NCBI RefSeq assembly: GCF_001542625.1
Contig: NZ_CP016279.1
Location: 4,526,001 to 4,590,000, forward strand
From: Streptomyces griseochromogenes
GTDB taxonomy: Bacteria; Actinomycetota; Actinomycetes; Streptomycetales; Streptomycetaceae
Length of the DNA: 64,000 nucleotides
Direction: 5' to 3'
Of this stretch, positions 2,752 to 64,000 are shown piece after piece (within the stretch, counting starts at the first letter, position 1; each line of letters opens with the position of its first letter). Made by a program: the position numbers and the translations under genes. The notes beneath the pieces are model-generated. The model was not told the DNA's origin. It saw only the letters and a list, made by a program, of their open reading frames with translations, and made no database searches.

Positions 2752-3773
2752 CCGCCGTCGCGCACCCCTCTCAGGCCGGCAGCGCTCAGCCGAGCGCGAC
2801 GGCCGAGCCCACGAAGCCGAAGCCCGATCCGCGGTATCTCGCGCTGCGCAACTTCGCCATGTCGATCACCGTCTTCAACGTGTTCGGCTACACCCTGCTC
2901 GGCTTCGAGCAGCCCTACCTGTGGCCGGTCTTCGCCCTGTTGACGGGGTACGCGACCGAGATCACCTTCGAATTGATCAGCGCGTGGGCGTACCAGCGGC
3001 GGCCGCGGTTCCTCGGCGGGGGAGTGCGCGGTCTGTACGAGTTCCTGCTGCCGGCGCACATCACCGCCCTCGCCGTGAACATGCTGCTCTACGCCAACAA
3101 CCAGATCCTGCCGGTCATCTTCGGCGTGTTCGTCGGTGTCGCCGGCAAGCACGCCTTCCAGGCGCCGATCAACGGGCGCATGCGGCACTTCATGAACCCG
3201 TCCAACTTCGGCATCACGTTGTCCCTGGTCTGCTTCGGCAGCTGGGTCAGCATCGCGCCGCCCTACGAGTTCACCGAGAACGCGAACACGTACTTCCGGG
3301 TGATGATCCCGATCATCATCGCCACGGCCGGCACCGTCCTCAACACCATGCTCACCCGCAAGGTGCCGCTGATCGTCGGCTGGATGGGCGGCTTCGCCAT
3401 CCAGGCCTTCGTACGGCACGGCATCTGGGACGTCGCACTGTTCTCCGCGCTGGGCTCGATGACCGGCGTCGCGTTCGTGCTCTTCACCAACTACATGATC
3501 ACCGACCCGGGTACGACGCCGATGAAGGGGCGCGCCCAGTTCATGTTCGGCGGCTCCGTCGCGTTCGTCTACGGGATCCTGATGCAACTGAACATCACCT
3601 ACACCCTCTTCTTCGCGCTCGTGATCGTCTGCGGCTTCCGCGGCCTCGGCTGGTGGGGCGCGTCCTTCGTCCAGCGCCTGCGGTCCGGGCGCACACCCGA
3701 CGCCACGGCGGGGAACGGAGAGGTCCCGGCCCGGGTGCCCGAGACGACGGATCTGGGGGCGATACGGGCATGA
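2748..3773 (+). CDS. unbU: Enediyne biosynthesis membrane protein UnbU (E5-type)
   Basis: 341-residue polytopic membrane protein of the RnfD-like UnbU family found in enediyne cassettes. After a hydrophilic N-terminus of about 30 residues there are roughly eight to ten hydrophobic segments, with the conserved NPSNFGI motif near residue 150 and TDPGTTP near 250. The ATG overlaps the UnbV stop and is preceded by CAGGAGG. Its own TGA overlaps the PKSE start, so UnbV-UnbU-PKSE are translated as a coupled block. By family it acts in the membrane and is linked to enediyne core formation or handling; the exact reaction is unknown. Confidence 0.9.
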   Translation: MTAVAHPSQAGSAQPSATAEPTKPKPDPRYLALRNFAMSITVFNVFGYTLLGFEQPYLWPVFALLTGYATEITFELISAWAYQRRPRFLGGGVRGLYEFLLPAHITALAVNMLLYANNQILPVIFGVFVGVAGKHAFQAPINGRMRHFMNPSNFGITLSLVCFGSWVSIAPPYEFTENANTYFRVMIPIIIATAGTVLNTMLTRKVPLIVGWMGGFAIQAFVRHGIWDVALFSALGSMTGVAFVLFTNYMITDPGTTPMKGRAQFMFGGSVAFVYGILMQLNITYTLFFALVIVCGFRGLGWWGASFVQRLRSGRTPDATAGNGEVPARVPETTDLGAIRA

Positions 3774-6700
3774 ACGGCCACCGGATCGCCGTGGTCGGCG
3801 TCGCCTGCCGCTATCCCGACGCGGACTCGACCGAGCAGCTCTGGCAGAACGTTCTCGCCGGCCGGCGGGCGTTCCGCCGGCTGCCGGACGAGCGCATGAA
3901 CCTCGACGACTACTACTCGCCCGATCCGGCGGCGCCCGACCGCTTCTACACGCGCAAGGCCGCCGTCCTGGAGGGTTTCGAGTTCGACCGCGTCCGGTAC
4001 CGGGTCGCGGGCAGCACCTTCCGGTCCACGGACATGACCCACTGGCTGGCACTGGACACCGCGGCGCGCGCTCTGCGGGACGCGGGCTTCCCCGGCGGCG
4101 AGGGGCTGCCGCGTCCGGCCACCGGCGTCGTCATCGGCAACACCCTGACCGGCGAGTTCAGCCGCGCCAACCTCATGCGGCTGCGCTGGCCGTACGTGCG
4201 CCGCACGGTCGGCGCCGCCCTGCGCGAACAGGGCTGGGACGACGCCGCGCTCGGCGCCTTCCTGGCCGGGCTCGAGACGCGCTACAAGAGCGCCTTCCCG
4301 CCGATCGACGAGGACACCCTGGCCGGCGGCCTCGCCAACACCATCGCGGGACGCGTCTGCAACCACTTCGACCTCCACGGTGGCGGCTTCACGGTCGACG
4401 GCGCCTGCTCGTCCTCGCTGCTCTCGGTGGCGACGGCGGCCAACGCCCTGGCGAACGGCCAGCTCGAGGTGGCCATCGCGGGCGGCGTGGACCTGAGCAT
4501 CGACCCGTTCGAAGTCATCGGCTTCGCCAAGACCGGCGCCCTCGCGACCGGCGAGATGCGCGTGTACGACCGCGGCTCCAACGGGTTCTGGCCCGGCGAG
4601 GGTTGCGGCATGCTCGTGCTCATGCGCGACGAGGACGCGGTCGCGCGCGGCTTGCGCCGGTACGCCGTACTCGCCGGCTGGGGCTACTCCTCCGACGGCA
4701 GGGGCGGCATCACCCGGCCCGAGGCCGCCGGGCACCGGCTCGCGCTGCGGCGCGCCTACGACCGCGCCGGGTACGGCATCGAGACCGTCGCCTACCTCGA
4801 AGGCCACGGCACCGGCACCGCCGTCGGCGACGCGACCGAACTGCGGGCGTTCGGCGAGGCGCGCCGCGCCGCCGACCCCGCGGCGCCCGCGGCGGCGATC
4901 AGCACCATCAAGGGCAACATCGGCCACACCAAGGCGGCCGCCGGCGTCGCCGGCCTCATCAAGGCGATCCTCGCCGTGTACCACGAGGTCATCCCGCCGG
5001 CCACCGGTCATGTAGACCCCCACCCCGAACTGACGGGGGACCGGCCCGCGTTGCGCGTGCCGCTCGAACCGGAGCCGTGGCCGGCCGGCCACCCCGTCCG
5101 CTCCGGCGTCTCGTCGATGGGGTTCGGAGGCATCAACGCACACGTCGTCGTGGAGCACGCCGACCGCGCTCCGGACGCGGGGCTCGGGCCGGAGGTCGAG
5201 GCACTGACGCGGTCACGGCAGGACGTCGAACTTCTCCTGGTGGACGCGGAGAACCTCTCGGCGCTGCGCGGACGGATCGCACAGCTGGCCGAGCTCTGCG
5301 GCAGACTCTCCTTCGCCGAACTCGGTGACCTCGCGGCCACACTCGAGCACGAGCTGGCCGACCGTCCGCTCCGCGCCGCGATCGTGACCGGTGATCCCGA
5401 GGAGGCGGGGCGGCGCTTCGCCACACTGCTGACGATGCTCGACAACGGGGCGCGATCCGTGGTCGACATCGCACACGGTGTCTTCCTCGGCACCTCCGCG
5501 CGGCCACCGCGGATCGGATTCCTCTTCCCCGGCCAGGGAGCGGGGCGGCGCGGAGACGGCGGAGCACTGCGACGGCGGTTCGCCGAGGTCGACGAGCTCT
5601 ACCGCACCCTGCCGATGCCCCCCGGCGCCGACCTGGTCGCGACCGAGATCGCCCAGCCGAGGATCGTCACCTCGTCCGTCGCGGGCCTGCGCGTGCTGGC
5701 CCTGCTCGGCATCGAGGCCGTCACGGCCGCGGGCCACAGCCTGGGCGAGCTGACCGCGCTGCACTGGGCGGGCGCGATGGACGAGGCCGGCCTGCTCCGC
5801 ACGGCCGCGGCGCGCGGCCGCGTCATGGCGCGGGCGAGCGACGGCGGCGGCACCATGGCGAGCGTCGTCGCGCCGCCGCAGGCGGTCGTCCCGCTTCTCG
5901 TCGGCGAGCCGGTGGTGATCGCCGGATACAACAGCCCTGAGCAGACGGTCGTCAGCGGACCGGCCGACGCTGTCAAGAGGGTCTGCGCACGGGCCGCCGC
6001 CCAGGGCTTCTCGGCGAACGAGATCCGGGTCTCGCACGCGTTCCACTCGCAGGCCGTCGCCCCGGCGGCCACCGCGTTCCGCGACCACCTGCGGGGCGAA
6101 CGCTTCGCTCCGCTCGCCCGGACCATGGTCTCCACCGTCACCGGCGGCACCCTGCCGGCCGAGACCGATGTGCCCGGCCTGCTGACCCGTCAGGTGCTCG
6201 ACCCGGTGCGATTCACCGAGGCGGTCCGGACGATGGCCGAAGAGGTCGACCTCTTCATCGAGGTCGGGCCCGGCAGGATCCTGCGTACTCTCGCCGGAGA
6301 GATCGCCCCCGGAGTGCCCGCGGTGTCGCTCGAGGCCGACAGCATGTCGCTCTCCGGCCTGCTGCACGCGGTGGCAGTCGCGTACACGCTCGGCGCGCCC
6401 GTCCGCCACGGTGAGCTCTTCCGCGACCGCTTCACGCGGCCGTTCCCGCTCGACAAGGAGCTGCGCTTCCTGACCAGCCCCTGCGAATCGGCACCGGTGC
6501 ACGATCTGCCGATTCTCCAGACGCCGGCAACTGTTCGGACTCCCGAAGCGCAGACTGCTGCGGCACCGGTGGCGGTGGACGGTGCCGACACGCTGGACGT
6601 GCTGCGGCGACTCGCCGCCGAGCGGGCCGAGCTGCCCCTGGAAGCGGTGAGCGCGCAGAGCAATCCCATCGACGAACTCCACCTCAGCTCGATCACGGTC

Positions 6701-9607
6701 GGCCAGATCGTCACCCAGGCCTCGCGGGAACTCGGACTGACGGCGCCGCTGGCGACCTCGGCGTTCGCGACGTCGACGCTGGCGCAGCTGGCCGAGATGC
6801 TCGACGAACTGGGCGAGACCGCGCGCTCCGGAGACGAGCGCGCCGCGGCCGACGTCGCCGGCGCGGGATCCTGGGTGCGCGCGTTCTCCGTCGAGCTCGT
6901 GCCGGCCGAACCCGGGCCGGCGGTCGCTCCGCCCGCCGACGGCGACTGGCAGCTGTTCGCCGCCGACCGGCACCCGCTCGCGGCCGCCCTCCACACCGCG
7001 CTGCGGCGGGCCGGACTAGGTGGCGGAGTGCTGCTCTGCCTGCCGCGCGGCTGCGACGAGAGCCACACACCGCTGATGCTCGCCGCCGCGCGCGCCGCCC
7101 TCTCGCCCGGCGCGCCGGGACGCTTCGTCGTCGTCGGCGACCGGCGCGGCGCGGCGGGTCTCGCCAAGACGCTGCACCTGGAGGCGCCCGCTGTCGTCAC
7201 CACCCTGGTCACCCTGCCCTTGGCGGAGTCGATGCCGGCCGAGCTCGTGGCGCGGACGGTGCCGCGGATCGTCGCCGACATCGCCGCGACCGCGGGCTTC
7301 AGCGAGAGCGTGTACGACGAGGCCGGAGTGCGCCGCGTCCCGTTGCTCCGGCCGCTGCCGGCGCGGCGCGGGCCCGGCGGGCCGTCCGCCCTCGGCGCGC
7401 AGGACGTGCTGCTGGTGACCGGCGGCGGCAAGGGCATCACCGCCGAATGCGCGCTCGACCTGGCGCGTACCACCGGCGCGGCGATCGCGCTCATGGGCCG
7501 CTCCGCCCCGGACTCCGACCAGGAACTCGCGGCGAACCTGGCGCGCATGGCCGCCGCGGGCGTGACCCACCGGTACGTGCGCGCCGACATCACCTCCGCG
7601 GACGAGGTCAAGGCGGCGGTCGAGGAGGTCCGCCGGACGCTGGGGCCGGTGACGGCGATTCTGCACGGCGCCGGCCGCAACGTGCCGCAGGTGCTCGCCA
7701 ACCTCGACGAGTCCTCCTTCCGCCGCACCCTCGCGACGAAGATCACGGGGCTGGAGACCGTGCTCGCCGCCGCGGACCCGGCCACGCTCCGGCTCCTCGT
7801 CACCTTCGGCAGCATCATCGGCCGGGCCGGCCTGCGCGGTGAGGCGGACTACGCCACGGCCAACGACTGGCTGACCGACCTCACGTACCGGATCCGGGAC
7901 GAGTACCCGAACTGCCGCTGCCTCGCGCTGGAGTGGTCGGTGTGGTCGGGCACCGGTATGGGCGAGCGACTCGGCGTGCTGGAGTCGCTGATACGAGAGG
8001 GCATCCGGCCGATCCCACCGGACGAGGGCGTCGCCGTCCTCCGGCGGCTGCTCACCGACCCCGATGCGCCCACCTCGGTCGTGGTCATGGGCCGCGCCGA
8101 GGGCCTGCCCACCATCATGCTCGAACCGCGCGAACTGCCGCTGTTGCGCTTCGTCGACCGGCCCCGCGTGCACTATCCCGGCGTCGAACTCGTCGTCGAC
8201 GCGGACCTCTCCGCCGACGACGACCTCTATCTCGCCGACCATCTGCTCGACGGCGACCTGCTCTTCCCGGCGGTGTTCGGCATGGAGGCGATGGCCGAGG
8301 CGGCCATGGCGCTGACCGGAAGGTCCGGCCCACCGGTGCTCGAGGATGTCGAGTTCCTCCGCCCCGTCGTCGTCCCCGTCGACGGGAAGACCACGATCCG
8401 GATCGCCGCACTCGTCACCGAGGAAGGCACCGTGCAAGCGGTGATCCGCAGCGACGAGACCGCTTTCCAGGCGGATCACTTCCGCGCCACGCTCCGCTTC
8501 GACGTGCCGCCGCCGGACGACAAGGCGCCCGCGGCGGCGGTCGAGGAGGTCCGGGTGCCGCTGGCGCCGATGGAGGATCTCTACGGCCCGGTGCTCTTCC
8601 AGGGTGACCGGTTCCAGCGCCTCCTGGGCTACCACGACCTGGCCGCCAAGGGCTGCGTGGCCGAGATCTCCACTGTGGCGGCCAAACCGTGGTTCGGCGG
8701 ATTCCTGCCGTCCGACCTCGTCCTCGCCGACCCGGGCACCCGCGACGCGCTCATGCACGCGATCCAGTGCTGCGTGCCCGACGCGACCCTGCTGCCCGCC
8801 GCGACAGAGCGCCTGTACCTCGCCGATCCGGCCCGCGTGCGTGCGCTCGACCGGGTCACGCTGCACGCCGCCGAACGCTCCCGCGACGGCGACACGTACG
8901 TGTACGACCTCGAGGTCCGCGATCCGGCGGGCGCGCTCGTCGAGCGCTGGGAGGGGCTGCGGCTCCGGGCCGTGCGCAAGCGGGACGGCGCGGGACCGTG
9001 GACGCCGGCGCTGCTCGGCCCGTACCTGGAGCGCCGGTCCGAGACGGTGCTGCCGACCGCGCTCCGCATGGCCGTCTGGCCGGACGGCCAAGAGTCCGCC
9101 GGCGACACGGCCGGCCGGCGCGAGCGGACCGCTCGGACGCTTGGCCTGGCGCTGGGCCGGAAGCCGAACCTCAGCTACCGGCCGGACGGCAGGCCCGAGG
9201 CCGACGGAGGGGTCGAGGTCTCCTCCTCGCACGGCGCGGGCGTGACGTTCGCGGTGGCCGCGGACCGGGCCGTCGGGTGCGACGTCGAGCAGGTCGTGGC
9301 GCGGTCGGCGCAGGAGTGGACCGACCTGCTCGGCACGGAGGGATTCGCTCTGGCCACGCTCGTCGCCGGCGAGCGCGACGAGGACCTGTCGGTCGCCGCC
9401 ACGCGCGTCTGGGGAGCACAGGAGTGCCTGCGCAAGACCGGCCACGCGCGCGCCGGGCTGGTCGAGATCTCCGGGCCGAGGGCGGACCGTTGGGTCGTCC
9501 TGCGCTCGGGGGCCGCGCAGATCGCGACGTTCCCCACGACGCTGCGCGGGCTCGCCGCACCTGTGGTCTTCACGATGCTGACGGAGTCGAGGGAGAACGG
9601 GACATGA
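3770..9607 (+). CDS. pksE: Enediyne iterative type I polyketide synthase PKSE (KS-AT-ACP-KR-DH-PPTase)
   Basis: 1945 residues, the normal size and architecture of the PKSE that builds the linear polyene precursor of the enediyne core. KS (about 1-450): Cys213 in DGACSSSL, His346 in EGHGTGT, His386 in GNIGHTKA. AT (about 580-840): GHSLGE with Ser657. ACP (about 930-1000): LHLSSITVGQ, where Ser973/974 is the phosphopantetheine site. KR: TGGGKGI near 1217 and Tyr1361 in EADYATANDW. DH: His1491 in LADHLLDGD. C-terminal PPTase (about 1740-1945): GCDVEQV with Asp1838 and Glu1840, and Glu1885 in WGAQECLRK, so it can activate its own ACP. All catalytic motifs look intact. The ATG overlaps the UnbU stop, and the TGA overlaps the thioesterase start. 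Confidence 0.97.
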   Translation: MNGHRIAVVGVACRYPDADSTEQLWQNVLAGRRAFRRLPDERMNLDDYYSPDPAAPDRFYTRKAAVLEGFEFDRVRYRVAGSTFRSTDMTHWLALDTAARALRDAGFPGGEGLPRPATGVVIGNTLTGEFSRANLMRLRWPYVRRTVGAALREQGWDDAALGAFLAGLETRYKSAFPPIDEDTLAGGLANTIAGRVCNHFDLHGGGFTVDGACSSSLLSVATAANALANGQLEVAIAGGVDLSIDPFEVIGFAKTGALATGEMRVYDRGSNGFWPGEGCGMLVLMRDEDAVARGLRRYAVLAGWGYSSDGRGGITRPEAAGHRLALRRAYDRAGYGIETVAYLEGHGTGTAVGDATELRAFGEARRAADPAAPAAAISTIKGNIGHTKAAAGVAGLIKAILAVYHEVIPPATGHVDPHPELTGDRPALRVPLEPEPWPAGHPVRSGVSSMGFGGINAHVVVEHADRAPDAGLGPEVEALTRSRQDVELLLVDAENLSALRGRIAQLAELCGRLSFAELGDLAATLEHELADRPLRAAIVTGDPEEAGRRFATLLTMLDNGARSVVDIAHGVFLGTSARPPRIGFLFPGQGAGRRGDGGALRRRFAEVDELYRTLPMPPGADLVATEIAQPRIVTSSVAGLRVLALLGIEAVTAAGHSLGELTALHWAGAMDEAGLLRTAAARGRVMARASDGGGTMASVVAPPQAVVPLLVGEPVVIAGYNSPEQTVVSGPADAVKRVCARAAAQGFSANEIRVSHAFHSQAVAPAATAFRDHLRGERFAPLARTMVSTVTGGTLPAETDVPGLLTRQVLDPVRFTEAVRTMAEEVDLFIEVGPGRILRTLAGEIAPGVPAVSLEADSMSLSGLLHAVAVAYTLGAPVRHGELFRDRFTRPFPLDKELRFLTSPCESAPVHDLPILQTPATVRTPEAQTAAAPVAVDGADTLDVLRRLAAERAELPLEAVSAQSNPIDELHLSSITVGQIVTQASRELGLTAPLATSAFATSTLAQLAEMLDELGETARSGDERAAADVAGAGSWVRAFSVELVPAEPGPAVAPPADGDWQLFAADRHPLAAALHTALRRAGLGGGVLLCLPRGCDESHTPLMLAAARAALSPGAPGRFVVVGDRRGAAGLAKTLHLEAPAVVTTLVTLPLAESMPAELVARTVPRIVADIAATAGFSESVYDEAGVRRVPLLRPLPARRGPGGPSALGAQDVLLVTGGGKGITAECALDLARTTGAAIALMGRSAPDSDQELAANLARMAAAGVTHRYVRADITSADEVKAAVEEVRRTLGPVTAILHGAGRNVPQVLANLDESSFRRTLATKITGLETVLAAADPATLRLLVTFGSIIGRAGLRGEADYATANDWLTDLTYRIRDEYPNCRCLALEWSVWSGTGMGERLGVLESLIREGIRPIPPDEGVAVLRRLLTDPDAPTSVVVMGRAEGLPTIMLEPRELPLLRFVDRPRVHYPGVELVVDADLSADDDLYLADHLLDGDLLFPAVFGMEAMAEAAMALTGRSGPPVLEDVEFLRPVVVPVDGKTTIRIAALVTEEGTVQAVIRSDETAFQADHFRATLRFDVPPPDDKAPAAAVEEVRVPLAPMEDLYGPVLFQGDRFQRLLGYHDLAAKGCVAEISTVAAKPWFGGFLPSDLVLADPGTRDALMHAIQCCVPDATLLPAATERLYLADPARVRALDRVTLHAAERSRDGDTYVYDLEVRDPAGALVERWEGLRLRAVRKRDGAGPWTPALLGPYLERRSETVLPTALRMAVWPDGQESAGDTAGRRERTARTLGLALGRKPNLSYRPDGRPEADGGVEVSSSHGAGVTFAVAADRAVGCDVEQVVARSAQEWTDLLGTEGFALATLVAGERDEDLSVAATRVWGAQECLRKTGHARAGLVEISGPRADRWVVLRSGAAQIATFPTTLRGLAAPVVFTMLTESRENGT

Positions 9608-23765: not shown

Positions 23766-24791
23766 CTAGGATCTCGGCCGTCGCTCCGGTGCCGGTGACG
23801 CGGGCTTGGACCTGCGGGATGTGGTGCTCACCTGTTCGGAGTCGAGTATGTGATCTCCGTACAGATCCTGCAGCCAGTTGGTCTGGTAGATGGTGTCGAG
23901 GTAGCGCTCGCCGAGGTCCGGCGCGATGGCCACCGCGGTGGTGCCCCGCATGTTGTGCCGGGCCAGCCAGTCCGTCGCGCCGCTGACCACCGTCCCGGTG
24001 GAGCCGCCGAACAGGAAGCCGCGTCTGGCCATGCGGTGACAGGTGCGGATGGTGTCCGCCTCCTCCACCCGGATCACCTCGTCCACGAAGGACTCGTCGA
24101 GCAGCGGGGGAACCATGCTCATACCCAGGCCGGGGATCATCCGGCGGCCGGGCTTGCCGCCGAAGGCCACCGAACCCACGCTGTCCACGGCGACGATCCG
24201 CACCGGCCGGTGCCACTGCCGGAAGTAGCGCGCGCAGCCCATCAGGGTTCCGGCGGTGCCCGTCCCGATGAACAGCACGTCCAGCCGCGGGAAGTGGCGG
24301 GCGATCTCCGGCCCCGTCGTACGCTGGTGCGCCCGCCAGTTGCCGGCGTTGGTGTACTGACTGAGCCACACATAGCGCTCGTCGGACGCGCACAGCGCAC
24401 GGACGTACTCGATCCGCGTGCCCAGGAACCCGCCGTTCGAGTCCAGGTCGGCCACGACGTGCACCTGACTGCCGAGAGCCTCCATCAGCAGTCTGGTCGA
24501 CAGGTTGCAACGGGAGTCCGTCACACACAGGAACCGGTAGCCCTTGCTCGCGGCGATCATGCTGAGCGCCACGCCGAGGTTCCCGGAAGAGGACTCGACG
24601 AGGATGGAGTCCGGCGTCAGGACTCCGTCCCGCTCGGCGCTCTCCACCATCTCGTTCGCGGCCTTCATCTTGATGGAGCCGGCGAAGTTGAAACCCTCGC
24701 ACTTCAGGTAGAGCGGGCATCCGAAGATCGACTCCAGATCGACGAAGAGACCGCCTTCGTTGAAGTCATGAGGAGCGGATATGACGGGCAC
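23766..24791 (-). CDS. sbnA: SbnA-like PLP enzyme: N-(2-amino-2-carboxyethyl)-L-glutamate synthase
   Basis: 341 residues from a GTG with CCAGGAGG seven bases upstream. Cysteine-synthase fold: PLP lysine in FNFAGSIKMKAA (about residue 40), VESSSGNLGVALSMIAA, and the phosphate loop GTGTAGTLMGCARYF. These features and the partner SbnB identify the diaminopropionate branch, in which O-phospho-L-serine and L-glutamate are joined to N-(1-amino-1-carboxy-2-ethyl)glutamate. The last 20 or so residues are a basic, probably disordered tail. It is the last gene of the operon, 37 bases after sbnB. Confidence 0.9.
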   Translation of the reverse strand: MPVISAPHDFNEGGLFVDLESIFGCPLYLKCEGFNFAGSIKMKAANEMVESAERDGVLTPDSILVESSSGNLGVALSMIAASKGYRFLCVTDSRCNLSTRLLMEALGSQVHVVADLDSNGGFLGTRIEYVRALCASDERYVWLSQYTNAGNWRAHQRTTGPEIARHFPRLDVLFIGTGTAGTLMGCARYFRQWHRPVRIVAVDSVGSVAFGGKPGRRMIPGLGMSMVPPLLDESFVDEVIRVEEADTIRTCHRMARRGFLFGGSTGTVVSGATDWLARHNMRGTTAVAIAPDLGERYLDTIYQTNWLQDLYGDHILDSEQVSTTSRRSKPASPAPERRPRS

Positions 24792-24828
24792 GGTGAGCCT
24801 CCTGGTGCCAAGGCTGAGGACAACGGCC

Positions 24829-25899
24829 TCAGCCGTATCGGCGCAGGTCGTGGAAGAAGTCTTCGATGAGGCGGAGGTTGCCCGCCCCTGCTGCTTCGTC
24901 GTAGACGTACTTGCCGACGGCGAGATCGAGGACGCCGAGTCCGAAGGGCGAGAAGATCACGGGGCGGTCGGTCGGCGGGGCCGCCCGTCCGAGCATCACG
25001 TCGTTGAGGGTGCCGTTCAGGAAGTCACGGTTGCCGGTGCGCTGCTCGACCAGGTGCGGGGACGTGTCGGCCTTCAGACAGTGCTCGACGTCGTCGACGA
25101 AGTTTGCCGAGGCCAGCAGGATCTCGGGCGCGAGGTCGCGCAGCGAGATGTGCAGGACCAGGGGGTTGTGGGTGAACCACGCCGGGTCGGTGACATGGGG
25201 TTCCCCGGCCACGGTGGCGAAGACCACGAGGTCGCTGGAGCGGATGAGGTCCTCGGCGCTGTCGTGGACCGTGACCTGCGCGGTGGTGCCGGCCTGCTTC
25301 AGATAGCCGCTGAAGCCGGCGCTGCTGTCGGCGGACACGTCGTGCACGCCGATCGTGTCGAAGGACCAGCCGGTCCCGGCCAGGAAGGTGTGGATGTACC
25401 GGGCGATCAGCCCTGTGCCGAAGAATCCGACACTGGCGGGGCGGGGCCGGCCGCGGCTGAGCCAGTCGGCGGCCAGCGCGGCGGACGCCGCGGTTCTGGT
25501 CGCACTGATGATGGAGCTCTCCAGACAGGCGAACGGGTAGCCCGTGCCGGGGTCGTTGAGGATGAGCACCCCGGACGCCCGGGGCAGCCCGGTTCGCACG
25601 TTGTCCGGGAAGCTGGAGATCCACTTGACGCCGTCCACATGGACCGACCCGCCGATCGAGGCCGGCAGCGCGATGATCCGCGCACTGGGGCGGTCGGGGA
25701 AGCGCAGGAAGTAGGACGGCGGGTTGACCGAGTCCCCGGCGCCGTGCAGCCGGTAGGTGGCCTCGATCAGTTCCACGATCTGTTTCTCGCGCCCGCTGAG
25801 CGCGTGCTGCACCTGCGTTCCGGTGATCACCGCGAACGTCGGCGCCGAAGGCTCGTGCGGCACGGCCGGCTGGGTGTCGGTGGACAACATACGGTTCAT
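24829..25899 (-). CDS. sbnB: SbnB-like N-[(2S)-2-amino-2-carboxyethyl]-L-glutamate dehydrogenase
   Basis: 356 residues when started at ATG 25899, which overlaps the stop of the oxygenase gene (ATGA); an upstream start at 25929 would overlap that gene by 34 bases. Ornithine-cyclodeaminase/mu-crystallin fold: VHVDGVKWISSFPDNV, ILNDPGTGYPFACLESSIIS, Rossmann motif GFFGTGLIARYI. With SbnA it yields L-2,3-diaminopropionate and 2-oxoglutarate by NAD-dependent oxidative cleavage. The 2-oxoglutarate released is also the cosubstrate of the oxygenase next door. Confidence 0.92.
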   Translation of the reverse strand: MNRMLSTDTQPAVPHEPSAPTFAVITGTQVQHALSGREKQIVELIEATYRLHGAGDSVNPPSYFLRFPDRPSARIIALPASIGGSVHVDGVKWISSFPDNVRTGLPRASGVLILNDPGTGYPFACLESSIISATRTAASAALAADWLSRGRPRPASVGFFGTGLIARYIHTFLAGTGWSFDTIGVHDVSADSSAGFSGYLKQAGTTAQVTVHDSAEDLIRSSDLVVFATVAGEPHVTDPAWFTHNPLVLHISLRDLAPEILLASANFVDDVEHCLKADTSPHLVEQRTGNRDFLNGTLNDVMLGRAAPPTDRPVIFSPFGLGVLDLAVGKYVYDEAAGAGNLRLIEDFFHDLRRYG

Positions 25900-26900
25900 C
25901 GCTGACTTGCCTCCGGGGTCGGGCAGCAATCGGCCAGGCGGCGGGGCTCGGCCATGCCGACCAGTACCTGCCGCTCTCCGGTGAAGGCCTCTCTGCTGTG
26001 TGCGGTGCGGATGTTGTCGACGAGCATCAGGTCACCGGCCTGCCAGGGCTCGCGTCGGGTGTGCTCTTCGTAGGTGGCGTTGAGCAGCTGGACTACGTCC
26101 TCGCCGATCGGGCTGCCGTCCCCGTAGCGGGTGTTGAACGGCAGTCCGTCCTCGCCGTAGACGTCCAGCAGGTACTCGCGCACCTCCTCGGCCAGCGTCC
26201 ACTCGTTGAGGAAGGCGATCTGGTTGAACCAGCAGCGCCTGCCCGTGACCGGGTGCCGCACCACGGCGCTGCGGCGCTGCTCGGTGCGCAGCGAGCCGTC
26301 GGCCAGCCAGGTGAAGTCGATGGCGTTCGCCCGGCAGTAGTGTTCGATCTGGGTGCGGTCGGCGGTGCCGAACGACTCCGTCAGGGTGGCCCCGATCTCG
26401 TCGTTGTAGGTGCGGGTCAGCAGCCAGCCCTCGCGTTCGAACCGTTCCGTCAGCCCGGTGGGCAGCGCCTGGAGGACCTGTTCCGCGTCCGCCACCGCGG
26501 TCGCCCCGCCCTCGCCGGGCGCGGTCAGGCACGCGAACAGCATCAGGCCGGGCACCTCCAGCAGATAGCTGAGTTCGTGGTGCATGCACATCGGCTGGTT
26601 GGCCGGCCAGGTCGTGGAGGAGTACAGCCCGGGGCCGTACGCCTCACGCGGGGCGAACGCCTCTCGCTCCGGTATCAGAGGCCCGGCGAGCCCCGCGAAG
26701 ACGGCACCGGCCTGGGACGCCTCGCGCAGCTCCAGGCCGCGGACGAGCAGCGCCCCGTGCTCGGTGACCTGCGCGCGCAGCGACTCGCGGTACTGGGCCG
26801 CCCAGCTCGGCGCGTCACCGGGTGAGCCCACGTGCAGGACCGCGGGTCTGTCCGGCCGCAGCTCCACATCGAGAGGTGCTGCGAGGGGTGAGGACGACAT
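25896..26900 (-). CDS. Fe(II)/2-oxoglutarate-dependent oxygenase (TauD/SyrP-like)
   Basis: 334 residues. The TauD-type metal site is MHHELSY (HxE variant) in the middle and His in RTAHSREAF near the C-terminus, with Arg of the oxoglutarate site about ten residues later in GERQVLVG. HxE members (VioC, AsnO, SyrP relatives) hydroxylate the beta position of amino acids, free or carrier-bound. By context the substrate may be diaminopropionate or another residue on the NRPS; this is inference. It lies 42 bases after the NRPS gene and overlaps sbnB. Confidence 0.85.
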   Translation of the reverse strand: MSSSPLAAPLDVELRPDRPAVLHVGSPGDAPSWAAQYRESLRAQVTEHGALLVRGLELREASQAGAVFAGLAGPLIPEREAFAPREAYGPGLYSSTTWPANQPMCMHHELSYLLEVPGLMLFACLTAPGEGGATAVADAEQVLQALPTGLTERFEREGWLLTRTYNDEIGATLTESFGTADRTQIEHYCRANAIDFTWLADGSLRTEQRRSAVVRHPVTGRRCWFNQIAFLNEWTLAEEVREYLLDVYGEDGLPFNTRYGDGSPIGEDVVQLLNATYEEHTRREPWQAGDLMLVDNIRTAHSREAFTGERQVLVGMAEPRRLADCCPTPEASQR

Positions 26901-26942
26901 CTCGGTTTCCCTTCGGTTGCCCGTCTGGAGGCTCTACGGGGT

Positions 26943-29900
26943 TCAGGAGGAGGCCAGTGGTGCCACGACGCCCAGGACGGCCTGTGCCGCCGCGGCCGGA
27001 CGGGTGCGCGGGAAGTAGTGGCCGCCGTCGGTCAGCTCGTGCAGATCCACGTGCTCGGTCAGGAGCAGCCAGTCCCGGTGGTGTTGGGCGTGACCGGCCG
27101 TGTGGGGATCGTCGGCGGCGACGACCACCGAGACCGGCGCGGCCAGCTTCACCGGCGCCGGGTTCTCCAGGACGGCGCAGAAATAGCGGTGCGCGGACAC
27201 ACAGTCGTGCCGGTAGGCCGCCCCGATGTGCTCGGCGTGCCGCGCGTTCAGTTCCGCGAGTTCCGTGTAGCCGTTGTCCGCGGTCAGCCGCGCGGCGATC
27301 TCGGCGTTGCTCAGGCTCGTCAGTTCGCCGATGGCCGAGCGCCGGTCGGGGACGGTGCCGAGCAGCTGCGCGCCGAGGAAGACCCGTGGCACGTCCACAC
27401 CGTGTGCCTGGAGCCGTCTGGCCGTCTCGATGGCCGGCGCGGTGCCCGAGGAGTGGCCCCACAGCAGGACCCGGGTCAGGCCACGGGCGACGATCTCGGA
27501 AGCGACCTGCTCCGCCACCTGGGTGATCGAGGCGAACGGCTCCTGATGGGCGGCCAGGTCGTGACCGGGCAGGTCCACCGCGAGGACCGCCACGCCGCTG
27601 CCCGCCAACGCGCTCGCCATCGGCTGGTAGTTGACCGCGTTGCCGCCCGCGTAGGGGAAGCACACCAGCGCGCACTCCGGCGCACCATCCGCCTCCGACA
27701 GCGGCTGGAGCAGCTCCGTGCGCTGGCGTGCCGTGCCGTCCAGCAGGCCGGCCAGGTCGGCGAGCACCGGGTGCCGGGTGATGTCCTTGAGGGACACCGC
27801 GCGGTCGAGCGCTACGGTGAGTCTCACCGCCGTCAGCGAGGTGCCCCCGGAGTCGAAGAAGTGGTCCTTGCGGCCGATCTGCGGCTCGGGGACGCCCAGC
27901 AGATCGGCCCAGACGACGGCCAGCTTCCGCTCGGTCGGGGTGAGCGGAGCGTCGCCGTCCGCGCTGGGTACGGCGGGCTCCGTCGTCTCCGCGAGTGCGG
28001 TCAGCGCCTTCCTGTCGATCTTGCCGTTGGCGGTCAGCGGCAGGCCGGGCTGCCAGTGGAAGGCCGACGGGACCATGTAGGCGGGCAGCCCGGCACCCAG
28101 CGCCTCGCGCAGCTCGTGCGCCTCCAGGCACCGGCCCGTGTAGAAGGCGATCAGGTGCTTGTTCTGCCCGGGCCGGTCGGCGACGACCACCGCGCCGTCC
28201 CGCACCCCGGCCACTCGCAGCAGGGCGTTCTCGATCTCGCCGATCTCGATGCGGAAGCCGCGGATCTTGACCTGGTTGTCCCGGCGGCCGAGGAACTCCA
28301 GCTTCCCGCCGGGGTGCCAGCGCCCCCAGTCACCCCCGAGGTAGAGCCGCTGACCCGGACGGTACGGGTCCTTCCGGTAGGCCTCCCGGGTCCGCTCGGG
28401 ATCGTTGACGTACCCGCGGCCCACGCAGACGCCGGAGAACGCGATGAGTCCGGGGGCGCCCAGCGGCACCAGCGACAGCTGCTCGTCCACGACGTAGACG
28501 TGCACGTTGTTGACCGCACGCCCCAGCAGCACGCGCTCGGGCACCGCGTCCATGACCTCGTGGTTGGTGTCGTCCGACGTCTCGGTCAGTCCGTAGGCGT
28601 TGACCAGCTTGATCTCCGGCTGGATCGCGAACCAGCGCTGGACCAGCTCCCGTTTCAGCGCCTCACCGGTCACCGACACGCACCGCAGGTCCGGCAGCGC
28701 GCGGGGGCGCTGCTCCAGATACGAGACCACGACCTCCAGATAGGAGGGCACGACCTGCGCCACACCCACCCGGCCGTGCACCAGCGTGTCGACGAACCGC
28801 TCCACGTCCACGATCACGTCCTGCGCGACCAGCAGGGTCCGTCCGCCCGTCAGGAGCGAGGACACCAGCTGCCACAGCGAGATGTCGAAGCACTGCGGGG
28901 CGGTCTGCGCCACCACGCATCCTTCGTCGATCCCCAAGTCGTCGATCTTGGCGTAGAGATGGTTGAGCAGACCCGCGTGCTCGCACATCGCGCCCTTCGG
29001 TTCGCCGGTGGAGCCGGAGGTGAAGTAGATGTAGGCCAGCTGATCGGCGTCGACCCGCACCCCGAGATCGGCCTCGCTGTGCGGCTCGGCGTACGCCGTC
29101 TCGATCAGCAGCTTCTCGGTTCCCGGGACGGCGGCGAGCGCCCGGTCGAGGGTCCGGGTGCTGCCGGATGCGGTCAGGACCAGCCGGCATCCCGCACGTG
29201 ACAACGTTGCCGTGATGCGGTCCGCCGGGAAGTGCGGCTCGATCGGGAGGTAGGCGCCGCCCGCCTTGAACACCGCCAGCGTCGCGGCCAGCCAGTCCAG
29301 ATCGCGCTCGGTGACGACGGCTACCACGTCTTCCCGGCCCAGTCCCCGCTGCAGCAGCGCCCGCGCCAACCGGTTCGCGCGCGCGTTGAGCTCGCCGTAC
29401 GTCCACTCCCGCTCGCCCTGCACGGCCGCCACCGCGTCCGGATGCGCCCGTGCCCGCTGCTCGAACAGTTCGTGCGCCCGCGCGTCCGGCAGCGGACGGC
29501 GGGGCCCGGCCAGCCCTTCCAGCTGCTCGCGCACCTCGTCGGCCGACAGCAGACTCTGCCGGGTGTGCTCGGCGTCCAGATCCGCCGTCATCAGCCCGAG
29601 CGCCGCCACGTGGTAGTCGCCGATCCGGGCCGCGCCCGCGGCGTCCAGCACGTCCGTGCGGTACCGCAGCCGCAGCCGCAGCCGTCCGTCCCGGTCGGAC
29701 CAGCGCACATGCACAACGCCGTCATCGGCATGGGTGTCCTCGGCCCCTCTGGGACCGAACACGACCTCGTAGGAAGGCTCCGCCGCGCCCAGCTCCCGCC
29801 GCAGTTCGTCCACCGGGAACTCCCGGTGTGCCAGCACCTGCGCCTCGGCGTGCTGAGCGGCCGAGACCAGTGCGCGCCAGGAGCCCGGGGGCACGGCAAG

Positions 29901-30194
29901 GCGGCACGGCAGCGGTTCGCCGCGCACCCCGGCGGCGTAACCCGTCACCACCTCCGGTTCACCGGACAGCGTGGCCAGTACCTTGGCATGCGCCGCCAGC
30001 AGTAACGCGCTCACCGGTACGCCCAGCTCCCGCACCAGCCCACGCACCGTCTCGGCCACGTCGTCCGGCACCGCCGCCTCGTGCTCGGCCGCTCCGGGAA
30101 CCGGCTCCCGGACCCAGCGTGGCACCGTGGTGGTACCACCTTCGGCCAGCACACGGCTCCAGAACTCCCGGTCCGCTTCCACGCGCGCTCCCAT
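26943..30194 (-). CDS. NRPS: truncated C - A - PCP - TE
   Basis: 1083 residues. About residues 1-200 match only the C-lobe of a condensation domain (REFWSRVLAEGG, VVTGYAAGVRGE); the HHxxxDG lobe is absent. A domain (about 235-740): YIYFTSGSTGEPKGAM, NAYGLTETSDDTNHE, LGGDWGRWHPGGKLEF, NGKIDRKAL; the FDISLW start of the binding pocket keeps the Asp that contacts the alpha-amino group. PCP: FFDSGGTSLTAV. TE (about 845-1083): LVCFPYAGGNAVNYQPMASA, nucleophile GHSSG, late DGGHYFP. With SbnA/SbnB beside it, the likely monomer is L-2,3-diaminopropionate or a hydroxylated form. Leu64 is a TTA codon (30003-30005). GAGGAAGG precedes the ATG. Confidence 0.9.
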   Translation of the reverse strand: MGARVEADREFWSRVLAEGGTTTVPRWVREPVPGAAEHEAAVPDDVAETVRGLVRELGVPVSALLLAAHAKVLATLSGEPEVVTGYAAGVRGEPLPCRLAVPPGSWRALVSAAQHAEAQVLAHREFPVDELRRELGAAEPSYEVVFGPRGAEDTHADDGVVHVRWSDRDGRLRLRLRYRTDVLDAAGAARIGDYHVAALGLMTADLDAEHTRQSLLSADEVREQLEGLAGPRRPLPDARAHELFEQRARAHPDAVAAVQGEREWTYGELNARANRLARALLQRGLGREDVVAVVTERDLDWLAATLAVFKAGGAYLPIEPHFPADRITATLSRAGCRLVLTASGSTRTLDRALAAVPGTEKLLIETAYAEPHSEADLGVRVDADQLAYIYFTSGSTGEPKGAMCEHAGLLNHLYAKIDDLGIDEGCVVAQTAPQCFDISLWQLVSSLLTGGRTLLVAQDVIVDVERFVDTLVHGRVGVAQVVPSYLEVVVSYLEQRPRALPDLRCVSVTGEALKRELVQRWFAIQPEIKLVNAYGLTETSDDTNHEVMDAVPERVLLGRAVNNVHVYVVDEQLSLVPLGAPGLIAFSGVCVGRGYVNDPERTREAYRKDPYRPGQRLYLGGDWGRWHPGGKLEFLGRRDNQVKIRGFRIEIGEIENALLRVAGVRDGAVVVADRPGQNKHLIAFYTGRCLEAHELREALGAGLPAYMVPSAFHWQPGLPLTANGKIDRKALTALAETTEPAVPSADGDAPLTPTERKLAVVWADLLGVPEPQIGRKDHFFDSGGTSLTAVRLTVALDRAVSLKDITRHPVLADLAGLLDGTARQRTELLQPLSEADGAPECALVCFPYAGGNAVNYQPMASALAGSGVAVLAVDLPGHDLAAHQEPFASITQVAEQVASEIVARGLTRVLLWGHSSGTAPAIETARRLQAHGVDVPRVFLGAQLLGTVPDRRSAIGELTSLSNAEIAARLTADNGYTELAELNARHAEHIGAAYRHDCVSAHRYFCAVLENPAPVKLAAPVSVVVAADDPHTAGHAQHHRDWLLLTEHVDLHELTDGGHYFPRTRPAAAAQAVLGVVAPLASS

Positions 30195-30207
30195 CGAATG
30201 GCCTTCC

Positions 30208-32802
30208 TCAACTCACGGTCGCCGCAGTGGCGTCGGCCGAAGACGGTGACGTCTCGGGGCCGCAGCCGCGGGGTTGTTCGGCGGCATCCGGCAGGTCCAC
30301 GGCGGGGTTGCCGCCCCACCGTGCGTACGCGGGGACTTCCTCGCCCTTCATGAGGAAGGAATCGGGTGCGAGCACCGCGCCGTCGCCCAGCGTCACGCCG
30401 TAATGCACATGGGCGGCGACGCCCAGCGTGCAGCCGGTACCGAGGGTGGTGCCGTCGGACTTGAAGGTGCCGTCCTCCTGCGAGTGGCACTGGATCTTGC
30501 TTCCGGCGTTGAGGGTGCAGTCGTCACCGATGGTGGTCAGCGACCGCTCCGTCAGATAGCAGCCGTCGTCGAAGACCCTGCCGCCGATGCGCACGCCCAG
30601 CAGCCGCCATACCAGGGCCTTGAAGGGCGTTCCGTTGAAGATGTTGAGGTAGTGGTCCGGCACCTTCCACAGGCGCTCGTGCCACCAGAAGTAGGGGTCG
30701 TAGATGGAGCACAGCCGGGGCCGCAGCGCGCGGAACGAGGCGATGCACCGCTCCAGCAGGATGAAGTAGAGGGTGCTGAACGCGAGCGTGATGGCCAGGT
30801 ATCCGCCGATCACCAGGTGTCCGAGCACTCCGTACAGATCCACGGACGCGAGCCCGAACAGCGTGAGCGCGAAGGTGTGCAGCCACCGCACGCACAGCAT
30901 GAGGGCCATCGAGCGAATGTTGTAGCGGTTCTTCGCGGCGAGATGTCGGTGGAGTGCGTCACCGGTCCTGAGACCGTCGAACCGTGAGTCACGCTCCACC
31001 GACCGGGGTATCTCGAAGCACGGCGAACCGAGGAGCCCTACGTTCTCCCGGACCTCGCCGTCCAGGGGAACCATCACCTTCGTCGCGAGCAGACAGTTGG
31101 CACCCGTTCTGCCGTCCGCGGGATAGGCGATGTTGTTGCCGAGGAAGTTGTGCGGCCCGATCGACGTCCGGGACAGCCGGAAGGACGTGCTCGAATAGTC
31201 CGCGTTGATGACGGAGAGCCCGTCGGCGACCATCGTCCCGCTGCCGACGGAGACCAGGAAGGGAGTCTCGTGCTGCACTTCGGTGCCGAAGTTCGACCCG
31301 GTCTGCTCGACCCGTGACAAGTCGTATCCGAGTCCCTGGAGATAGTGCACGATGTAGGAGCTGTCACCGAACAGCCAGGCGAAGAACTTGATGTTCGTCA
31401 TGCGCGCCGTCGCCCGGTGGACCGCGTAGTGGAATCCGTAGAGCGGATAGACCCGGTCCGGCTTGACGGCCAGCCTCAGCAGACGCGGGACGGTGCACAG
31501 GGCGACGAGGCCCAGGACGACGAAGCCGAAGAACAGCACGAGCGAGATCTGCAGCGCGTCGGGGATCAGTTCCGACCGCTTCACTGCGGCCATCTGCGGG
31601 TCCAGGCGCTTGCCGATCGCCGGTAGTTCGGTGAACAGCATGTACACCCCGCCGACGGCCAGCGGTATGTACAGGAAGAACAGCTGAAGGAGCGTGACGA
31701 GGCCGAACCAGGCCCGCCGCGGGGTGCCGCAGGCGGCCGGTGCGACCCGCAGGTAGTCGATCTCGGTGGGCTGTGCCGGGGACCCGTGCCAGTGCTCACC
31801 GTCCGGGACCGCCTGGCCGCGGTACAGGGCCGAGGAGTGGCCGAGCTGGGCACCGTCGCCCATCGTCGTGTCGATGTCCAGGACGGTCTTCTCGCCGATG
31901 TACACGTCACGGCCGAGGGTGATCCGGCCGGTCTGGATCCGTCCGGCGTGGGCCCGGTAGCCGAGGAAGAACGAGTCCTTGCGGATGACGGTGCCGGAGC
32001 CGATGGTGAGCAGGTCCGTGCAGACCGGGACGGAGGGGGAGAGGATCGTGACTCCCTTGCCGATCCGCGCGCCGAGCGCCCGGAGATACAGCACGAACAG
32101 CGGATTTCCGACGAAGAGAATCATCGGATTCGCGTGGAGCAGTACCTTGACGAGCCAGAAGCGCAGATACGTCAGGCCCCAGACGGGGAACTCACGAGGT
32201 TTCCAGCGGCCGACGAGAAGCCATTTGGCGACGACCGGGAAAAGGCACAGAGCCACGAACCCGATGCCACCGAACAAAAGCGACCGCAGATAGATGTCGG
32301 CCAGCCCGGAACCGGTGGCTATCCAGCCGTATCCACTGTCCGCGACAAATCCCGCGACCAGCGAGTATCCCAGGAATACCAGCAACTGGAGTGTTCCGCA
32401 GAGGACGTGGTTCAGCTTGCCCGGGGGCCTGAGCGGAGCGGCCGTATTCACGGGTACCGGTGGGGGGACGGCGGTCGGCGCATCCACGGGACCGGGAGCG
32501 GGCTGCGGGAAAGCCGCTGCCAGACTTTGGACCGTGGGGTGCCGGTATATGTCCTTCATGGACGGGGACGGCAGGTCCGCCCGCTTTCTCAGGCGCGCAC
32601 AGAACTGGGCCATGACCAGGGAGTTTGCGCCGAGGTCGGTGAAGAAATGGCCGTCGACCGGAACGCGTTCCGCGCCCATGACGTCTGCCAGCGCATCCGC
32701 GAGTTTCCTCTCGGTATCCGCCGTGGGGCCGGAGCCGCTCAGTCTGGTGACGGCGCCTTTGTCCCGCCCGGATAGAGGGACCTCGGAGGACTGCTCCACC
32801 AT
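30208..32802 (-). CDS. Stand-alone PCP plus Pls/PosA-type NRPS terminal domain (membrane, left-handed beta-helix)
   Basis: 864 residues from ATG 32802 (CCAGGAG upstream). An N-terminal carrier domain has the Ser in FTDLGANSLVMAQF (about residue 60), then a Pro-rich linker, then the NRPS terminal domain known from poly-lysine synthetase (Pls)-like enzymes. Three pairs of membrane segments (about 135-205, 365-455, 620-690) alternate with hexapeptide-repeat beta-helix parts (IGKGVTILSPSVPVCTDLLT; RTSIGPHNFLGNNIAYPADG; ERSLTTIGDDCTLNAGSKIQ). Pls proteins carry an A domain before this PCP; here it is missing and may be supplied by the next gene, 13 bases away. The protein would sit in the plasma membrane and extend, hold or export the product. 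Confidence 0.85.
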   Translation of the reverse strand: MVEQSSEVPLSGRDKGAVTRLSGSGPTADTERKLADALADVMGAERVPVDGHFFTDLGANSLVMAQFCARLRKRADLPSPSMKDIYRHPTVQSLAAAFPQPAPGPVDAPTAVPPPVPVNTAAPLRPPGKLNHVLCGTLQLLVFLGYSLVAGFVADSGYGWIATGSGLADIYLRSLLFGGIGFVALCLFPVVAKWLLVGRWKPREFPVWGLTYLRFWLVKVLLHANPMILFVGNPLFVLYLRALGARIGKGVTILSPSVPVCTDLLTIGSGTVIRKDSFFLGYRAHAGRIQTGRITLGRDVYIGEKTVLDIDTTMGDGAQLGHSSALYRGQAVPDGEHWHGSPAQPTEIDYLRVAPAACGTPRRAWFGLVTLLQLFFLYIPLAVGGVYMLFTELPAIGKRLDPQMAAVKRSELIPDALQISLVLFFGFVVLGLVALCTVPRLLRLAVKPDRVYPLYGFHYAVHRATARMTNIKFFAWLFGDSSYIVHYLQGLGYDLSRVEQTGSNFGTEVQHETPFLVSVGSGTMVADGLSVINADYSSTSFRLSRTSIGPHNFLGNNIAYPADGRTGANCLLATKVMVPLDGEVRENVGLLGSPCFEIPRSVERDSRFDGLRTGDALHRHLAAKNRYNIRSMALMLCVRWLHTFALTLFGLASVDLYGVLGHLVIGGYLAITLAFSTLYFILLERCIASFRALRPRLCSIYDPYFWWHERLWKVPDHYLNIFNGTPFKALVWRLLGVRIGGRVFDDGCYLTERSLTTIGDDCTLNAGSKIQCHSQEDGTFKSDGTTLGTGCTLGVAAHVHYGVTLGDGAVLAPDSFLMKGEEVPAYARWGGNPAVDLPDAAEQPRGCGPETSPSSADATAATVS

Positions 32803-63200: not shown

Positions 63201-64000
63201 CCGCCCCCGCGTGCAGCGCGAAGTCGAGCCAGGCGGTACCGGGCAGGATCACCTCGTCCAGCACCCGGTGGTCGGCCAGCCACGGGGACGCGGCCACCGA
63301 CAGACGGCCGGTCAGCACGAACTCGTCGCTCTCCGCCAGCTCGACGGCCGTTCCCAGGACGGGATGACCGGCACTCCTGGCCTCACCCGGCATCAGCCAG
63401 TACCGCTTGCGCTCGAACGGATACGTCGGCAGCTCGGCGAACATCGGTGTGCCCGGCGCGGCCCATGCCGTCCAGCGCGGGCCGAGACCGCGGACGTACA
63501 GCTCGGCCAGGGACGCGAGCAGCGCCCTGCGACCGTCCTCCTGGCGACGCAGCGATCCGACGGCCAGGGCCTTGTCGCCGACGGCCTCCAGCACGGCCGG
63601 GACCAGCACGGGATGCGGGCCGACCTCCACGAAGAACGAGTGCTCGGGCACCGCCAGCCCCGCGACGGCGTCGTAGAACCGTACGGGCAGACGCAGGTTC
63701 CGGTACCAGTACCCGGCGTCCAGCTCCGTCCCGGCGAGCACACCGCCGGTCACCGCGGAGTGGAAGGGGATGTCCGTGGCCTTCGGCGACACCGGCGCCA
63801 GCTCGGCGAGGACACGCTCGCGGACGAGCTCCACCTCCGGCGAATGGGACGCGTAGTCCACCGCCAGCCTGCGCACCCGCACACCCGCCTCGGCCAGGTC
63901 GGCGAGCAGCGCGTCGAGCGCGTCGACGGCTCCGGCGACCACCGTCGATCCCGGCCCGTTGACCGTCGCGACCGACAGCCGCTCGTCCAGCCGGGACCGC
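60217..64000 (-). CDS. Modular type I PKS, terminal module AT(part)-DH-KR-ACP-TE (cut by window edge)
   Basis: The frame is open to base 64000, so the N-terminus lies outside; 1260 residues are visible. AT end: the YASH motif (63844-63855) is the methylmalonyl-CoA signature. [15 protein letters not shown] and [13 protein letters not shown], both catalytic motifs present. [19 protein letters not shown] (61759-61767) and [17 protein letters not shown] predicts B-type stereochemistry. No [52 protein letters not shown]. The module adds a propionate unit, reduces and dehydrates it to an alkene, and releases the chain by hydrolysis or cyclisation. The stop is followed by a hairpin. Confidence 0.95.

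Follow-up and report, generated by a model that had tools for sequence, protein, structure and literature searches.

The window analysed here, 64,000 nt of Streptomyces griseochromogenes (contig NZ_CP016279.1, positions 4,526,001 to 4,590,000), carries a tight operon of five genes on the minus strand at window positions 23766-32802. With a probability of about one half, we read this five-gene cassette as a trans-acting polymerase of the poly-L-2,3-diaminopropionate (poly-Dap) type that would be fed with carrier-oxidised Dap. In operon order, the cassette encodes PlsT, a stand-alone peptidyl carrier protein (PCP) joined to a Pls/PosA-type membrane terminal domain (TD); a nonribosomal peptide synthetase (NRPS) made up of half a condensation (C) domain, an adenylation (A) domain, a PCP and a thioesterase (TE); a TauD-type 2-oxoglutarate (2OG) oxygenase; and homologues of SbnB and SbnA. 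An earlier reading of the letters alone, hereafter the sequence-only reading, had proposed such an operon as a split Pls-like Dap assembly system. All five genes lie where it had placed them, and their domains were found by Pfam and TIGR profiles.

The gene set was sought in other genomes, as the sequence-only reading had suggested. The best 80 of 234 related loci were kept (79 from Streptomyces and one from Kutzneria), giving 81 with the window. All five genes occur in one order and on one strand in 76 of the 81 loci, and the other five (L045, L055, L074, L078, and L082) stop inside the cassette at a contig end. With 76 of 81 loci alike, the five genes form a unit, beyond chance; since the best 80 of 234 loci were taken, the figure speaks for close relatives. 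Across the 76 complete loci, pairwise distances of the five proteins correlated with r of 0.74–0.93, as expected of a cassette that may have been inherited and moved together as a block, and shared ancestry alone also gives such values. The flanks of the same 76 loci were compared over approximately 10 kb before PlsT and 3.5 kb after SbnA, with the own-genome pieces L001–L003 and the five contig-cut loci set aside. No flanking open reading frame (ORF) family (>40% identity, 60% of the shorter protein, G+C at third codon positions (GC3) >0.8) was present in more than 11 of them, and hence no conserved regulator, exporter, or resistance gene was seen in the flanks examined.

PlsT (30208..32802, minus strand, 864 aa) matched PF00550 at residues 33–97 and TIGR02353 at residues 134–834, the latter at 837.8 bits (cut-off 423.1) and with the model covered end to end. 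It therefore has one mark of the cationic homopolyamino acid (CHPA) synthetases of the Pls/PosA kind, a terminal domain of that family adjoining a PCP. The PCP serine (Ser61) was invariant in 40 aligned rows, and hydropathy peaked at around residues 133–151, 174–192, 220–245, 368–386, 419–437, and 633–687. Seventy TD columns were invariant in 17 fused synthetases; among 35 cassette TDs, 56 of these were conserved at a level of 94% or higher. The window TD was 51–53% identical to the TDs of five fused synthetases with the A-domain code DFETLSVVTK (four) or DFWTLSVVTK (one), and 22–26% identical to those of twelve lysine-type fused synthetases, the host's own included.

A tree was built from 60 hand-picked TDs: 11 from the 81 loci, 24 cassette variants, the five DFE/DFW-type TDs, six orphans, two others, and the lysine type, represented by four of the 26 loci used for the code check below and eight further ones (the fragments L135–L137 were left out). 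Cassette, orphan, variant, and DFE/DFW-type TDs were grouped against the lysine type with support of 100/100. Papers are cited here by PMC number for the excerpts of them that were consulted; in one, synthetases of poly-Dap and of poly-2,4-diaminobutyrate (poly-Dab) have Phe at code position 2, where lysine synthetases have Ala (PMC10522769). Given the grouping and the 51–53% identity with Phe2-coded fused synthetases, the window TD is predicted to be of the poly-Dap/poly-Dab type, a class assigned by code in a set that held no assayed synthetase of either polymer. The separate PCP–TD protein of the sequence-only reading was confirmed. The same genome also encodes a fused Pls synthetase with the lysine code DAETIGTVVK (L001, G000:C1:8094161-8096191), and so the host may additionally produce epsilon-poly-lysine.

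The strongest evidence that the TD, the A-PCP module, and the oxygenase serve one intermediate comes from natural fusions. In L138:4161-11132, a single ORF of 2323 aa reads PCP-TD-halfC-A-PCP-TauD and is followed by SbnB and SbnA; its domains were confirmed by profiles, save the half C domain, which is a BLAST match only. L150 encodes an NRPS-TauD fusion of 1188 aa. Overall, 16 of 20 divergent regions held all five functions, the others being L130, L135, L136, and L137, of which L136 and L137 are short contigs. The full set was also found in eight of 16 further regions. SbnA was divergent in L142 and L151, and L148 had PlsT and NRPS only. In six orphan loci (L149, L152, L153, L154, L155, and L156), a PCP-TD protein is encoded and the rest of the cassette is missing; in L149, L152, and L155 this protein has two PCP matches. 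Of the six orphan genomes, which had been picked for PlsT matches and are not an unbiased sample, five have an NRPS and a TauD of the cassette kind at another place; this arrangement fits a putative action in trans. L135 and L136 come from one genome of another family (G399). Both carry pieces of PlsT, L135 also has SbnA, and L136 has two NRPS copies and TauD with some residues unreadable; together they may represent a two-module version.

The Fe(II)/2OG oxygenase (25896..26900, minus strand, 334 aa) matched PF02668 with 149.9 bits. Its residues H107, E109, and H301 (HxE...H) and R310 were invariant in a 30-row alignment; from knowledge of the family, we take the first three to be iron ligands and R310 to be the 2OG-binding Arg. 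The best match among solved structures was 1y0z (At3g21360), a protein not known to have been characterised functionally. The HxE-type oxygenase of the sequence-only reading is therefore present with an invariant ligand pattern, and the fusions in L138 and L150 assign it to the set. As it is fused to the NRPS PCP in both, it would act at the NRPS carrier. SyrP-type oxygenases, which have a TauD-family fold and an NRPS partner, act on a carrier-bound amino acid, Asp; fold and partner are alike in the cassette, whereas its substrate would be Dap. Dap hydroxylated at C3 is a hemiaminal as long as its beta-amine is free, and would lose ammonia. Thus an oxidised unit in aldehyde, imine, or enamine form is as likely as hydroxy-Dap, and so is an oxygenase that hydroxylates N-acylated Dap; by this reasoning a stable hydroxy-Dap is less to be expected than an aldehyde, an imine, an enamine, or an N-acyl hemiaminal formed after linkage. 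The hydroxy-Dap unit put forward earlier is accordingly chemically awkward.

Dap supply by SbnA and SbnB, also part of the sequence-only reading, held up. SbnB (24829..25899, minus strand) matched TIGR03944 with 417.9 bits (cut-off 326.9), and SbnA (23766..24791, minus strand, GTG start) matched TIGR03945 with 385.7 bits (cut-off 349.95). The two genes are adjacent, and each product is the sole match above its curated cut-off in the whole genome. The most likely start of SbnB is the ATG at 25899, which overlaps the TauD stop (ATGA), rather than an upstream TTG (ORF 24829-25929).

The NRPS (26943..30194, minus strand, 1083 aa) begins with a condensation domain of which the C-terminal half is present (PF00668, positions 189–284 of 456, 25.2 bits, below the cut-off of 30.6), followed by AMP-binding, AMP-binding_C, PCP (Ser786), and Thioesterase domains. 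Three of the 81 loci lacked a closed NRPS frame, leaving a set of 78 orthologues, in all of which the A-domain code was identical (DIWSSTADDK). Distant variants gave the same code in 18 of 19 ORFs with an A domain, the exception being the unrelated A protein of L130; one L136 copy is cut, with nine of the ten code positions readable. Among nine cassette-type NRPSs from the 16 further regions, eight had the code, and L148 differed by one change (DIWSSTTDDK). As a check of the method, the same extraction yielded DAETIGTVVK for each of 26 fused Pls proteins, a set drawn by ORF length from the 150 TIGR02353 matches listed. The cassette A domain was 32–34% identical to these 26 lysine-type A domains and appears to stem from another NRPS line than the fused relatives of the TD. 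The Asp residues at code positions 8 and 9 could hold a short side-chain amine. Chiefly because of the dedicated SbnA/SbnB pair, we infer that Dap is the substrate. The specificity check asked of the A domain thus returned an invariant code, though not one of the homopolymer-synthetase type, and an assignment to Dap that comes mainly from its neighbours.

The TE is of a type-II-like kind, with the triad Ser915, Asp1028/1029, and His1059. Two of the 78 orthologues lack the region, and the triad residues were found in all 76 that have it. Among 26 variant NRPSs scanned, a set without the cut L136 copy, a Pfam TE was detected in just two, L133 and L134. BLAST matches of L127 and L140 extend through the TE region, so degenerate TEs may remain there. 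An essential role of the TE in the pathway was thereby ruled out: the TE of the sequence-only reading exists in the window NRPS and is a variable component of the system.

The following steps are predicted from homology, on the basis of the observed gene set, co-occurrence, motifs, TD relatedness, and fusions. SbnA and SbnB would make Dap, which the A domain would load onto the PCP of the NRPS and, probably acting in trans, onto that of PlsT as well. The oxygenase would oxidise the carrier-bound Dap, at a site and in a manner that are themselves conjectural. The TD, acting in trans at the membrane with its own PCP, would link units via the beta-amine as isopeptides, presumably into an oligomer or polymer. 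Where present, as in the lineage of the window, the type-II-like TE would hydrolyse, clear, or release carrier-bound units.

Several observations weigh against such a polymerase. The combination of a TE with half a C domain is unusual for a homopolymer synthetase. The cassette code is reportedly much like a Dab code, a likeness for which a literature search for Dab and Dap code strings gave no match. In the TD tree, split and fused DFE/DFW-type TDs were weakly separated (80/49; 83/77), and the cassette TDs did not form one clade (four changes, with orphans nested among them). L130:1-5772, which starts at a contig start, lacks the usual NRPS; its PlsT and TauD are followed by an unrelated A-type protein of 585 aa with the code DASLATMRSK. 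One orphan genome, G864, has neither a cassette-type NRPS nor TauD. Finally, the cassette code has Trp at position 3 and no Glu, unlike homopolymer synthetases, in which Glu3 is conserved, the code of lysine synthetases beginning Asp1/Ala2/Glu3 (PMC10522769). A fused synthetase, L166:4349-8527, has the code DFWTLSVVTK, likewise with Trp for Glu at position 3 and unlike the reported conservation, and Glu3 is thus not absolute for homopolymer synthetases.

A plain fission of Pls, as the sequence-only reading had envisaged, was ruled out because the A domain belongs to a different type (no Glu3, 32–34% identity) and the TD is far from those of the lysine type (22–26%). Doubtful, yet the best of the remaining alternatives, is a small molecule: the TD would join one oxidised Dap to one amine, such as a second Dap, and the TE or TD would release a dipeptide or a cyclised product. 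A product of two units would match the two carriers and lone A domain, as well as the half C domain and, in the window, the TE, and an oxygenase fused to the NRPS carrier suggests that units are tailored ahead of condensation. Against this stand the TD, which has its nearest relatives among fused synthetases with poly-Dap/poly-Dab-type codes and retains 56 of the 70 columns invariant in the 17 fused enzymes, and the lack of a Pfam TE in 24 of the 26 variant NRPSs.

Transfer of activated, possibly oxidised, Dap by the TD to an acceptor in the envelope, such as a lipid or wall polymer, is improbable. The hydrophobic stretches and acyltransferase-like hexapeptide repeats of the TD would suit a membrane aminoacyl transferase, and no exporter or self-resistance gene recurs beside the cassette in the flanks compared. 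However, the cassette has no acceptor gene, and the tested TDs of the Pls/PosA family yield free homopolymers in the excerpted reports (PMC4668381, PMC10522769). A monobactam-like route, in which the TE would close Dap to a beta-lactam with the TauD enzyme in the role of SulO, is very improbable: the sulfazecin pathway (SulM, SulG, SulH, and SulO) likewise combines a Dap supply pair, an NRPS module with a TE at its end, and a non-haem iron oxygenase, but it has a TE with a catalytic Cys in a Gln-Cys-Asn motif, a sulfotransferase, and a methyltransferase, with no Pls-type TD mentioned in the excerpt (PMC11298585), whereas here Ser is the catalytic residue wherever the region exists (76 of 78 orthologues), a Pfam TE is absent from 24 of 26 variants, and no sulfotransferase or methyltransferase is conserved in the flanks compared, as no family there exceeds 11 of 76 loci.

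The reading as a poly-Dap-type polymerase was also compared with known systems. PDAPs, the poly(L-diaminopropionic acid) synthetase of Streptomyces albulus PD-1, shares with the cassette a membrane TD of the Pls/PosA kind and a streptomycete host, and its strain draws Dap from an SbnA/SbnB-like pair, NjxA/NjxB (PMC4668381). Unlike the cassette, PDAPs is a single fused A-PCP-TD protein without a TE, and its Dap genes are not near the synthetase, with no oxygenase named in the excerpt (PMC4668381); the window A domain is of another type and on a separate protein, PDAPs being compared by description. The comparison with poly-Dap synthetases proposed by the sequence-only reading therefore brought the TD close to the five DFE/DFW-type fused enzymes and set the A domain apart. 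The epsilon-poly-L-lysine synthetase Pls and the delta-poly-L-ornithine synthetase PosA likewise have a PCP and a TIGR02353-kind TD, but they are fused and have Asp1/Glu3 in their codes (PMC10522769), whereas the cassette A domain is on its own gene in all 76 five-gene loci and the window NRPS has a TE with an intact triad. The distant variant L138 is one polypeptide, yet it differs from Pls and PosA in its domain order and its TauD domain.

As in the cassette, a cationic oligomer is made by separate proteins in streptothricin biosynthesis, where the priming unit sits on the carrier ORF18; there, unlike here, the amide bonds are formed by ORF19, an adenylation domain standing alone, and no Pls-type membrane domain is named in the excerpt (PMC9606270). 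By these descriptions, the streptothricin route is a different mechanism. A keyword search of open-licence PMC text, judged mostly from titles and the openings of abstracts, showed no description of the cassette. One candidate, PMC11061393 ("Pls-like", from a streptomycete), was rejected as its excerpt concerns an ordinary Pls. A comb-like Dap polymer was reportedly the subject of Takehara 2021, and Yamanaka 2022 is said to deal with epsilon-poly-beta-lysine.

Upstream of position 32802, the divergent intergenic region of the window contains a perfect inverted repeat (GGTAAG-C-CTTACC). Across 77 upstream regions (four of the 81 loci were skipped), the iron-box consensus was matched at only 8–12 of 19 bases and the Zur-box consensus at only 6–10 of 15, with no shared site seen for either. 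Two further long ORFs lie in the window, at 60217-63942 (1241 aa) and 2921-9607 (2228 aa).

Relatives of PlsT (E ≤1e-100) were detected in 58 of 197 genomes evenly drawn from the order, all 58 in the genus of the window. Among the 58 are at least one fused DFE-type synthetase (G807, L141) and one genome with an orphan only (G864). Across the phylum, the same threshold gave 6 of 396 genomes, from 3 of 236 genera. TIGR02353 (E ≤1e-50) was found in 110 of 199 genomes of the genus; the 150 matches listed divide into 77 from frames shorter than 1160 aa, which are stand-alone or partial, and 73 from longer frames, among them the L138 fusion. Within the genus, 218 of 392 genomes had relatives of the TauD enzyme (E ≤1e-60), more distant oxygenases being counted among them.

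These comparisons confirm the operon and support the sequence-only reading in part: the cassette is best seen as a new and common form of poly-Dap-type system, in which the TD would act in trans and an oxygenase is built in. We suggest, more tentatively, that the cassette may represent a widespread, undescribed class of homopolyamino-acid pathway in approximately three of ten Streptomyces species, combining a TD that polymerises in trans, carriers loaded by an unrelated A domain, and oxidation of each monomer on the carrier ahead of linkage, to yield an oxidised poly- or oligo-Dap. In the excerpted accounts, Pls/PosA-type synthetases are single fused enzymes, and polymerisation by the TD, length control, and release are left open (PMC4668381, PMC10522769). 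The natural separation of activating module, carrier, and TD makes each step accessible in vitro, and the single protein of L138 is an attractive one-gene construct for biochemistry. An in-line oxygenase would be, to our knowledge, the first tailoring step in the Pls/PosA family. As relatives of PlsT are present in 58 of 197 genomes, all of one genus, the product may matter in Streptomyces biology.

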